Shown: in pieces, positions 56,146 to 62,258 of the stretch | Layout: every line of letters starts with the position of its first letter | Numbering within the stretch: the first letter of the stretch is position 1 | Assembly (NCBI GenBank): GCA_937922655.1 | Contig: CALAJH010000001.1 | Coordinates: 62,001 to 126,000 of the forward strand | Origin: an uncultured Bacteroidia bacterium | GTDB lineage: Bacteria; Bacteroidota; Bacteroidia; J057; CALAJH01 | Length of the DNA: 64,000 bases | Direction of reading: 5' to 3' | Made by a program: the position numbers and the translations under genes | The notes under the pieces: generated by a model | Database searches by the model: none | Seen by the model: the letters and a program-made list of their open reading frames with translations, nothing else | Told to the model about the DNA's origin: nothing

Positions 56146-57546
56146 TCAAAGGTCGAAGCCGCAATAAGAAAGGTCGTAACTTTTGTTGTTTATCGGAAAG
56201 TCGGCGATTTCGGTACCGCGCATCGAGAGTTCGAGCGCCTTCCAGTTGTGAAAAGAGGGGTCGACGATTTTGTAGGTTTTAAAACGGCCTTGTTCGTCGG
56301 TAACGGCGGCGTGAACCACCTCCCCCCTCCAAGCTTCGACAACCGAAAAAACGAGCGTTTGGGGTTCGAGCGCCGACGCGGCGGGATACGATTGGCATTG
56401 GGACTCGCTCGGCCATGGCGTTTCATCCAAAATCGTACGAATCAACGATACGGACTGTTCGATTTCCAAAAGCCGAAGGACGGCGCGGGCGTAAGCGTCG
56501 CCGTCGGGCAGGGTAATCGGCACGAAACGGGGAAAGAGCGGATTGCGGGTTCTGGCGTCGCGCGGCACGCCGCACGTTTTGGCGCACAGGCCCACCCAAC
56601 CCAATATTTCCGCCTGTTCGCGCGTAACCCTGCCGTTGCCTTGCAAGCGTTCGGCAACGCCGTTGCTTTCCCGAAATTCGGCGGCCATCGGACGGAATTT
56701 TTTTTCCACGCCGTCGAGCGTTTTGTGTAAAGCCGATTTCAACGCTTCGGTAAACGGGAAACGCACCCCTCCGGGCCGCAGCAAACCTTTTCCGAACCGG
56801 TTGCCGCACCACGACTGCATAAAGTTGACGACGGGCGTGCGCAAAACGCCAAAAACCGACGCGCCCGGACGATAAGCCAAATCCGTACACAACGCCGACA
56901 AATTGCCCAAATGCTGTCCCATGCGTTCGATTTCCAAGGCCATGGCCCGCGCCGCAAGGTCGTTGTAAGCCACCTCCCAACCCGCCGCTTTTTCCCAAAG
57001 TTCGCACGCGGCCCACGCGTGGCCGATGGCCGTATCGCCGCAAATCGATTCCGCCAACGTCGTCAAACGCGCGGGATGTCGGGCGTCGCGCATGAGTTTT
57101 TCAACGCCCCGACGTTGATAGCCCAAGGCGATTTCCAGATGCAAAACCTTTTCCCCCGAACAAGAAAAACGAAAATGCCCCGGCTCGATAATACCCGCGT
57201 GAACGGGTCCGACCCCCACCTCGTGCAAGCCTTCGCCCTCGACGAAAAAAAAATCGCGTGCACCCGGCTTGCGAACGGTATGCAAACGTGGATGCGCCGC
57301 CCATTCCACTCCATGTTCCTCCCAAAGTTCGCACTCGAAAAGGTGCGCGTGCGCATGTACCGACGACAAAGCCGGCAGTACGGGACGCGATTCGGGATAA
57401 AAATAACGCCAAACTTTTTCGTCGGAAACGTAAAATGCATCATAGCCGCCGGAAACGGGCGAAAAAAAGTACGCCAAACAACGCCCCGCACCGTCAAACA
57501 AGTTTTCGTATTCGACGACGGGAATGGAAGCAAGGGGAAGTTTCAT
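56146..57546 (-). CDS. HyfG/NuoCD-like large subunit without Ni-Fe ligands
   Basis: 466 residues. It has the layout of HyfG/HycE: an N-terminal NuoC-like part (about 1-120) and a NuoD/[NiFe]-hydrogenase large-subunit-like part. Diagnostic stretches are EGLHEVGVGPVHAGIIEPGHF, LEIALGYQRRGVEKLM and the C-terminal NNKSYDLSYCGFDL. [NiFe] group 4 enzymes need two CxxC motifs as ligands. Here the first is reduced to one Cys in SICGDTAIGHAWA and the second to one Cys near the C-terminus, so it cannot hold a Ni-Fe site and would act as a quinone- or redox-linked subunit. Its ATG overlaps the stop of the HyfF-like gene (ATGA). No NuoB/HyfI small-subunit gene is next to it. Confidence 0.85.
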   Translation of the reverse strand: MKLPLASIPVVEYENLFDGAGRCLAYFFSPVSGGYDAFYVSDEKVWRYFYPESRPVLPALSSVHAHAHLFECELWEEHGVEWAAHPRLHTVRKPGARDFFFVEGEGLHEVGVGPVHAGIIEPGHFRFSCSGEKVLHLEIALGYQRRGVEKLMRDARHPARLTTLAESICGDTAIGHAWAACELWEKAAGWEVAYNDLAARAMALEIERMGQHLGNLSALCTDLAYRPGASVFGVLRTPVVNFMQSWCGNRFGKGLLRPGGVRFPFTEALKSALHKTLDGVEKKFRPMAAEFRESNGVAERLQGNGRVTREQAEILGWVGLCAKTCGVPRDARTRNPLFPRFVPITLPDGDAYARAVLRLLEIEQSVSLIRTILDETPWPSESQCQSYPAASALEPQTLVFSVVEAWRGEVVHAAVTDEQGRFKTYKIVDPSFHNWKALELSMRGTEIADFPINNKSYDLSYCGFDL

Positions 57547-58952
57547 TTGAGGACAAGTTGGGCGGTTTGGGCGACGACGCGGGAAAATTCTTCGGGGGGA
57601 GCGACGGCCAAAACAACGACCGCCGCCATGAGCGCGTACTGCGAAACGGTTTCGATGTTTTTCAGCGGGGCCGGCAAAGGGCCGGAAGAAGGCGAATCAA
57701 TCACGCCCAACACGTTGCGTCCCATGGCAAACAAAACGACCGTCAGCATTCCCGTCATAAGCACGAAGGTAAAGTAGCGCTCGCCCGCGATAAGCGCCTT
57801 GAACGTCATCAATTCGGAAAAGAACAAACCGCCCGGCGGCATGCCCAAAGCCATCGCCCAAGCCAAAAGCAAAGCCGTCGCGCCCGCGGGAAAAACACGC
57901 ATATATCCACGCATCGCGCCCACGTCTTTGGCGTGAAATATCCTTCCCACTTGTCCCGCCTGAAAAAACAAGCCCGCCTTGACCAAGGAGTGAAAAAACA
58001 AATGCAAAAACGCGGCGGGCAACGCGCCCACGGCCAACGCCACCAACGCAATGCCTCCGTGTTCCATACTCGAATAAGCGAAAATACGTTTGAGGTTGCG
58101 CACTTTCAAAAGGAATACCATCGCCAAAAATATTGTGGCCGTGCCCGTAAAAAGCAGCACGGCGTTCATCCATGCGGCGGCGGGGCTTGCGGCAAAGATT
58201 TGATAAAAGCGAAACACGGCGATAAAACCGGCGTTCATCAGTCCGCCGGAAAGCAGGGCGCCGACGGGCGAAGGCGCCACGTCTTTGGCGTCAATGTCGA
58301 CGTTGAACAGCGGCACAACCCCCATTTTGACGCTAAAGCCCGTAAAAGCGAAAACAAAAGCGATTTTTAACCACAACGGGTCGAAACGCGAGGCGTTGCG
58401 GGCCAATTCGTCCACGAAAAGCTCGGCGTGGCGCTCGGGAATGGCGGCGGTTAAGCACAAGACCCCCAAAAAGGCGATGGCCACCCCTACCGAACAGATA
58501 AAACTGTATTTCCACGCGGCTTCAAGGGCGGCGGGGTCGCGCTTGTGATAAATCAACACACTGCCGAAAACGGTCGTCGCCTCCAAGAACGCCCACAAGA
58601 CCCCGAGGTGCCGAGCCAAAATTGCGCCCGTAGTCATGGCCACAAACATCACCATAGCCATATTGTGTAGGGCCACCACGTGCGCCGGCTCGTTGCGAGA
58701 TACGTTGTAATGATAACCGTGAAACATACTCAACACACTGACGACGCCCGTCGCCGCCAAAAGCATCCATCCCCCCGCGTCGGCTTTGAAGTAAACGCCC
58801 GTCGTTTCGTTCAAATGCACGTACTCGTAGACAACCAGCATGCATTGCAGCGCCGCAAAAACGGTCATAAGCGCCGCCGTCGCCCAGCGGCTGCGTAATA
58901 CGAACAACAACCCGGCCGTCGCCACCGCCCCGACAAAATACCTCTCTATCAT
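57543..58952 (-). CDS. HyfF/NuoN-type proton-antiporter-like membrane subunit
   Basis: 469 residues, mostly hydrophobic with about 12-14 membrane segments. It belongs to the Mrp-antiporter/NuoLMN family: an interrupted helix region with FSVKMGVVPLFNVDIDAKDVAPSPVGALLSGGLMNAG corresponds to the conserved LPDAHSxAPSPVSxLLSG segment. Expected Lys and Glu channel residues are partly visible (WKYSFICSVG, LKVRNLKRIFAYSSMEHGGIALV, HSLVKAGLFF). The usual His residues of the HSxxPSP motif are replaced here, a divergent form. The closest pattern is HyfF of hydrogenase-4-like complexes. It starts the two-gene unit with the HyfG-like gene. Confidence 0.85.
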   Translation of the reverse strand: MIERYFVGAVATAGLLFVLRSRWATAALMTVFAALQCMLVVYEYVHLNETTGVYFKADAGGWMLLAATGVVSVLSMFHGYHYNVSRNEPAHVVALHNMAMVMFVAMTTGAILARHLGVLWAFLEATTVFGSVLIYHKRDPAALEAAWKYSFICSVGVAIAFLGVLCLTAAIPERHAELFVDELARNASRFDPLWLKIAFVFAFTGFSVKMGVVPLFNVDIDAKDVAPSPVGALLSGGLMNAGFIAVFRFYQIFAASPAAAWMNAVLLFTGTATIFLAMVFLLKVRNLKRIFAYSSMEHGGIALVALAVGALPAAFLHLFFHSLVKAGLFFQAGQVGRIFHAKDVGAMRGYMRVFPAGATALLLAWAMALGMPPGGLFFSELMTFKALIAGERYFTFVLMTGMLTVVLFAMGRNVLGVIDSPSSGPLPAPLKNIETVSQYALMAAVVVLAVAPPEEFSRVVAQTAQLVLK

Positions 58953-61373: not shown

Positions 61374-62258
61374 TCATTTTTTCAATCCCGCAAACTCATC
61401 GCCCGCCATAATTTCCGCCTCCGTCGCCTGATAATCGTAACCCGAGTTGCGCATTTTTTTTACGTGGTATTCGAGCTCCGTCGACGCTGGTTTGCGCAAA
61501 AGATGACGGGTGTAAAGTTGAGTGATTTGTCCGGCGATGTAGTCGTCGGAATCAAAAAAAATCTTGATGAAATTTTCTTTTGAATCTCCGGAGCGTAAAA
61601 AAACCACGGCGTTTTTGCCGTCGACCATACGCGTGGCTTGGTCGTACTCGTGGTCGGTGGGGTTGCGAAAAAGAAAAGATTCAAAGACCGAAAGCACGAA
61701 GTTGGCCGTACCCATATTGATTTGGTCGTAAAATTCGTTGTTTACCACCCGTGTATGAAAGTCGCGAACGGTCAGCGAACGATTGAAAAGTCCTTCGTCG
61801 GCCGCCAAAAACATCTTGCACCTTTCGAGGTCGTATTTCAACCTTCCCAATTCAAACTTCATCCAATCTTCGTACGGATTGGCGATAATCCGCTCTAAAA
61901 ATTCGATGTGCCGAACGACGTCGGAGGTGTCGAGGCCGCGCAAAAACTCGTTTATGGCCGCGTCGTAAAGCCGGCGAACGTAGGCGCTGTCGGCCATCAA
62001 GTTTAAAAGAAAATTTTTTCGGGCGGCAACGGAAAAATCATCGGCGCTTAAAGACAAAACGGCGGACGTGTTTTCCGCGTCGTTGGGTTTGCGGCCCAAG
62101 AGCGAGATGTACGAACGGCTTACAAAGTTTTCAACGGTTACCGTCGGTACGGCGTCGTCGGGCGGAGGGTTGTTTCCCCCAACCGTTTTCAATACCTCGT
62201 CTTGTTTGCAGGCGTTAAATAACAACGTCAACGCCAATAGCGGAACCGTATATCTCAT
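61374..62258 (-). CDS. Lipoprotein with repeated R-x-P segments (DUF4214-like, tentative)
   Basis: 294 residues. A lipoprotein signal with lipobox LLFNAC is followed by a short linker and a helical mature part. YISLLGRKPNDAEN near residue 55 and LYTRHLLRKPASTELE near 265 are similar segments that recall the Y-x-x-LxR-x-P-D/S pattern of DUF4214, but the match is weak. The rest is mixed alpha/beta without a recognised family. It sits in the cmk operon: its ATG overlaps the DUF697 stop by 4 bp, and its stop overlaps the next in-frame ATG of the acylase region. Confidence 0.7.
   Translation of the reverse strand: MRYTVPLLALTLLFNACKQDEVLKTVGGNNPPPDDAVPTVTVENFVSRSYISLLGRKPNDAENTSAVLSLSADDFSVAARKNFLLNLMADSAYVRRLYDAAINEFLRGLDTSDVVRHIEFLERIIANPYEDWMKFELGRLKYDLERCKMFLAADEGLFNRSLTVRDFHTRVVNNEFYDQINMGTANFVLSVFESFLFRNPTDHEYDQATRMVDGKNAVVFLRSGDSKENFIKIFFDSDDYIAGQITQLYTRHLLRKPASTELEYHVKKMRNSGYDYQATEAEIMAGDEFAGLKK

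Follow-up and report, generated by a model that had tools for sequence, protein, structure and literature searches.

The hyfF- and hyfG-like genes in this stretch of DNA (64,000 nucleotides, referred to here as the window) probably encode two of the six subunits of an Ehr-type membrane ion-translocating complex, with the other four subunits encoded at three unlinked sites elsewhere in the genome. This assignment is based on sequence comparisons, and the features of the window that bear on it are as follows.

57543..58952, minus strand: hyfF-like antiporter subunit, 469 aa (PF00361, 4e-34; NCBIfam hydrogenase 4 subunit F, 1e-59)
56146..57546, minus strand: hyfG/ehrL-like large subunit, 466 aa (PF00346, 4e-30), NiFe ligands lost
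57043..57054, minus strand: position of the first NiFe-ligand motif in HyfG, where CGDT replaces CGIC (codons 168-171 from the ORF start; possibly 3 bases off)

As originally predicted, the two adjacent minus-strand ORFs form a HyfF/HyfG-like unit, and the start of the hyfG-like gene overlaps the stop of the hyfF-like gene by four bases in the ORF list of the window. The HyfG-like protein consists of a short NuoC-like N-terminus followed by a NuoD/HyfG domain. Its top PDB match by sequence is 7z0s_E, subunit 5 (HycE) of FHL, the large subunit of E. coli formate hydrogenlyase (E 1.5e-75 with the family profile), and the same chain was the first Foldseek match of its AlphaFold model (pTM 0.80). 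The window HyfF retains its charged axis (E124, K209, H321, K325 and E380). The Glu of TM5, the Lys residues of TM7 and TM8 and the Glu/Lys of TM12 are found both in this protein and in the HyfB of its own genome, and are nearly invariant across the family. It was also correctly predicted that no NuoB-like, NuoH-like or further antiporter-type gene lies next to the pair among the window ORFs. The neighbours are an adenylate kinase, a penicillin amidase-like protein and hypotheticals, all unrelated to the pair. The penicillin amidase-family gene (PF01804; 59182-61377, minus strand) overlaps by four bases an upstream gene for a DUF4214-containing protein with a lipoprotein-like start (61374-62258, minus strand). 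A promoter and terminator scan at the hyfF-hyfG pair gave counts at chance level.

At most one of the four NiFe cysteine ligands of a group 4 [NiFe] hydrogenase is left in the window HyfG. In an alignment to E. coli HyfG, CGIC is matched by CGDT, with C1 kept and C2 changed to Thr, and DPCYSC is matched by DLSYCG, with C3 changed to Ser and C4 to Gly. The C-terminal Cys of the window protein precedes C4 by one residue, which puts it outside the ligand position. Since the C-terminal ligand region of the HyfG model has a pLDDT below 50, this register is taken from the alignment and not from the model. The alignment is able to detect the site, as L091, a genuine NiFe-type homologue from the same searches, reads CGIC and DPCYCC. 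In another column list the CGDT motif is numbered as residues 169-172, hence the possible 3-base shift given above; in that numbering G170 and D171 are family-invariant. C1 is Ala or Ser in the relatives tabulated, and also Val or Gly among plasmid homologues. HypD of the Hyp maturation system is absent from the window genome, and the control genomes with a match include E. coli. The expectation that the Ni-Fe ligands are missing is therefore borne out by both the alignment and the lack of HypD. The more specific claim of one Cys in each Ni-Fe motif stands for the first motif, but not for the second, where the Cys is out of register. Taken together, these comparisons support the loss of the NiFe site, with its ligands lost throughout the family, and the complex is predicted to be one that cannot make or use H2. 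A NiFe enzyme with alternative ligands was also considered and found to be unsupported, as a single ligand position is kept and there is no HypD.

The original prediction allowed that the other subunits might lie elsewhere, and a search of the window genome (3.58 Mb in 84 contigs, listed as 100% complete) for hyfB, hyfC, hyfE and hyfI-like genes located them at three other places, with one in-family copy of each.

Contig C11, L033 5377-7194: HyfB, in-family homologue
Contig C64, L026 6001-6915: HyfC (PF00146), about 50% identical to relatives
Contig C64, L026 6915-7565: HyfE, directly after HyfC
Contig C30, L029 5711-6505: fused HyfH-HyfI (PF01058), a 2x[4Fe-4S] domain of the HyfH type joined to a NuoB domain of the HyfI type

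Thus the absence of a small subunit, as first noted, is true of the pair's locus but not of the genome, where the HyfH-HyfI fusion shares 48-54% identity with the protein encoded beside hyfG in four relatives. The genome encodes eight PF00361, three PF00346, three PF01058 and three PF00146 proteins, and the eight antiporter proteins are classified by NCBIfam as NuoL (two), NuoM (two), NuoN (two), HyfB and HyfF. What had been named as counting against the original reading was a complete hyf cluster at another site, from which these two genes had been displaced. This holds in part: the other subunits do exist, but the cluster is dissolved, so that six subunits, in one copy each, are spread over four unlinked loci. 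The contigs that enclose their genes measure 48, 185, 195 and 312 kb, and the GC content around the genes (0.53-0.56) resembles that of the window (0.51-0.56 in 12-kb pieces). Given such long contigs with the genes in their interior, the matching GC and the single copies, an assembly artefact is an unlikely cause of the dispersal. Both complex I sets of this genome are likewise scattered singly, with two each of NuoL, M, N, H, B and D and none adjacent (sites in G000: C32, C8, C1:143030, C26, C30:101151, C21, C25, C1:51707, C33, C24, C58 and C45). Since they are scattered in a like manner, dispersal is a trait of the genome. PF00361 genes are also spread across many contigs in several genomes of the same order. 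A 1224-aa ORF with an N-terminus that is Cas9-like by eye only (L034 9379-13053) lies near a nuoL gene of the window genome.

When the conservation of the pair was examined in other Bacteroidota, as had been proposed, it was found within clusters of six or seven genes. The comparison set comprised at least 35 relatives, most of them from Bacteroidota, and a protein scan of public genomes yielded six relatives. Most of the genomes compared are probably metagenome-assembled. Profile searches gave matches in 17/395 genomes of the phylum and 15/395 of the class, each count including the window genome. The gene order (B)B-C-E-F-G-I was present in every relative with a long enough contig, and at a few loci G and I are separated by an additional gene. 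Since the relatives are clustered throughout, the family is a conserved six- or seven-gene unit to which the window genome is the exception. Similar NiFe-less clusters occur on plasmids of Variovorax, Allomeiothermus, Rhodococcus, Methylocalor, Azospirillum and Rhizobium, showing that the lineage is wide.

The relatives differ in how much of the Fe-S wire they keep. The fused small subunit has twelve Fe-S cysteine positions, which were compared across 37 sequences. All ligands of the three clusters are kept in the window protein (12/12 cysteines) and in 13 relatives, two of which have one Cys fewer, their first motif being variant yet complete. The first ferredoxin-type cluster, which corresponds by analogy to N6a of NuoI, has a broken ligand set in four relatives. 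In 19 further relatives both the N6a-type and the N2 ligand sets are lost. The second ferredoxin-type cluster (N6b type) has four invariant cysteines (37/37). At the N2 positions of the N2-less clade, C1 is Asp, C3 is Asp and C4 is Asn in 19/19 sequences, and C2 varies (Cys, Ala, Asn or Ser). Large-subunit trees place these 19 in one group nested among N2-keeping forms (87/91; 96), with the window sequence adjoining it. A concatenated tree with the ligand columns removed places the window, L076 and L103 together at the base of the group, so N2 may have been lost once or twice. The small-subunit tree by itself is poorly resolved. The Ehr-type small subunit on plasmid pMESIL01 of Allomeiothermus silvanus (L110 13284-14156) has T, D, E and S at the four N2 positions. 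As Allomeiothermus (Deinococcota) falls outside the N2-less group, this is an apparent second, separate loss.

The N2-less forms do not appear to be degenerating. Their HyfF has all five charged residues invariant, and those of HyfB are nearly so (one Lys for Glu and one gap). For HyfI of this clade, three pairs gave pN of 0.10-0.13 against pS of 0.72-0.73. The resulting pN/pS of 0.14-0.18, together with the invariant replacement residues, indicates purifying selection and a conserved function, and rules out decay. No intact paralogue that might rescue the N2-less clade was seen, with one HyfI-type match per genome (E <= 1e-45). AlphaFold modelling of N2-less HyfI (six sequences) gave a pLDDT of 53, and the model was not used.

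With this in mind, we can propose how the complex may be built and what it may do. The six products of the four loci would assemble into one complex with the architecture of formate hydrogenlyase or hydrogenase 4, in which the antiporter-like B and F, HyfE and the NuoH-like foot C would make up the membrane part, and G and HI would make up a peripheral arm with three [4Fe-4S] clusters. The conserved job of B and F would most likely be the translocation of ions (H+, Na+ or K+). The window genome has kept its Fe-S wire, so redox drive is still possible there, and a low-potential donor such as ferredoxin may drive the arm, with a non-proton acceptor occupying the former NiFe cavity. Close relatives have cut the wire and retained the membrane part, which indicates that electron flow is not essential to the family's function. 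Since the wire is dispensable in these relatives, ion movement is the most promising place to look for the conserved function. These comparisons suggest that ion transport, and not electron transfer, is what the family conserves. The intact wire of the window genome counts against this explanation, as it argues that redox still matters there.

Going further, we tentatively consider, at somewhat less than even confidence, that the Ehr lineage includes machines of the complex I superfamily that move ions without any electron transfer, and that the window genome carries a dispersed, intact-wire sister form. Under this scheme the NiFe site would have been lost first, then N6a and then N2, with the N2 ligands becoming the invariant Asp/Asp/Asn. 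A single isolated cluster would be left, with the ion-pumping axis under strong selection. Such a machine may work in cation/proton antiport, or in the uptake of anions (SulP), with a link to K+ or pH homeostasis. By locus counts, the genes beside the cluster in relatives point to homeostasis of cations, pH or anions. At eight loci the cluster has a SulP anion transporter gene next to it or close by, and an HTH-EIIA protein is encoded directly upstream of hyfB at 12 loci (L077-L079, L081-L088 and L090). KdpA, KdpB and KdpD are next to the L076 cluster, Kup is next to that of L098 and a diadenylate cyclase is next to that of L021. The single SulP of the window genome is unlinked (contig C15) and shares 47% and 43% identity with the SulP proteins by the L076 and L103 clusters, which belong to the window's nearest relatives in the concatenated tree. 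In the HTH-EIIA protein, an HTH_17-like domain at the N-terminus is combined with a PTS EIIA_2 domain at the C-terminus. A SulP-STAS-EIIA fusion transporter lies between hyfG and hyfI in one relative (L089 6939-9137).

The strongest alternative is that all forms are redox-driven pumps, in which electrons pass from ferredoxin or formate dehydrogenase to quinone, polysulfide or another acceptor and ions are pumped in the manner of MBS and complex I. In its favour, the window genome and many relatives keep all three Fe-S clusters intact, and MBS and complex I are examples of an arm that has lost NiFe and still passes electrons to other acceptors. One group reported that Ehr abundance rises with growth on formate in Geobacter, and another supposes a formate dehydrogenase partner (an FDH-Ehr complex). 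Since the formate and FDH proposals require electron flow through the arm, they could apply to intact-wire forms only. The 19 relatives that lack N6a and N2, with the remainder still under selection, argue against a redox pump in all forms. So do the missing quinone-site Tyr, in a region that corresponds to CGIC and reads [ACS]GD[TS] rather than the complex I sequence, and the clusters themselves, where no conserved dehydrogenase was found beside those of the relatives. We therefore consider this alternative rather unlikely, although less so than those that follow. The broken-up cluster and the long end branches of HyfG and HI in the trees might suggest a relic in decay that is no longer needed, but the six ORFs are intact, their Fe-S ligands and charged residues are kept and the genome has scattered its complex I sets in the same fashion, making this very improbable. 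A stand-alone HyfF-HyfG complex of two proteins, suggested by the pair being the sole complex I-like genes at the window locus, is hardly credible given that the genome has one in-family copy of each missing subunit and that every relative on a long enough contig carries the full cluster.

A central question about complex I, still open, is how redox in the peripheral arm drives pumping in the distant membrane arm. Nature here provides a series of forms that have successively lost the NiFe site, the entry cluster and the exit cluster while conserving the membrane arm. The series shows the role of the arm once electrons stop, and the N2-less relatives offer a system for testing coupling without electrons. 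The result also constrains the function of Ehr. New here is the loss of N6a and N2 in the sister clade; NiFe-less complexes of the Ehr type were already known. The searchable literature held no report of N2 loss, but most subscription papers and the founding Ehr papers were outside reach, and an earlier mention is possible. Those founding papers are reportedly Coppi 2005 and Marreiros 2013.

The best match among known families is Ehr (energy-converting hydrogenase-related), judged by comparison with its published descriptions. Ehr has been described in publications as a group 4-like complex without NiFe ligands, and genome papers on Nitrospira and Sulfobacillus give its function as unknown. 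The Ehr of Geobacter, Nitrospira, Sulfobacillus and Margulisbacteria shares with our genes a group 4-like cluster with NuoL-, NuoH-, HyfE- and HyfF-like membrane subunits, a small subunit and a large subunit from which the NiFe motifs (CxxC) are missing. The NuoL-, NuoH-, HyfE- and HyfF-like subunits and the small subunit of this set are all present in the window genome, although unclustered. In contrast to Ehr, the window genes lie in four loci and HyfH and HyfI are fused, and the window's sister clade also lacks N6a and N2. E. coli Hyc and Hyf have the same subunit types and the nearest solved fold. In the present complex, however, all NiFe ligands but one are changed, there is no HypD, HyfA or HyfD, and the HyfH and HyfI that are separate in E. 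coli are joined. MBS (Mbx) of Pyrococcus, a sulfane reductase, is also a complex I relative with an antiporter module and a partly lost NiFe site. It keeps two of the four NiFe cysteines, whereas this family keeps at most one (one in register in the window HyfG) and has Hyf-type membrane subunits. Respiratory complex I has lost the NiFe site too and shares homologues of NuoB, NuoD, NuoH and the antiporters, but the cluster of the relatives has no NADH module. The quinone-site Tyr and His of NuoD are not matched in the alignment, with CGDT at the Tyr region and GPVHAG against the GPQHPATHG of complex I. The Mrp antiporter and the DAB/Mps inorganic-carbon systems use PF00361 ion-translocating subunits redox-free, and they are not known to have a NuoH-, NuoB- and NuoD-like arm. 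In contrast, the Ehr-type complex proposed here retains that arm.
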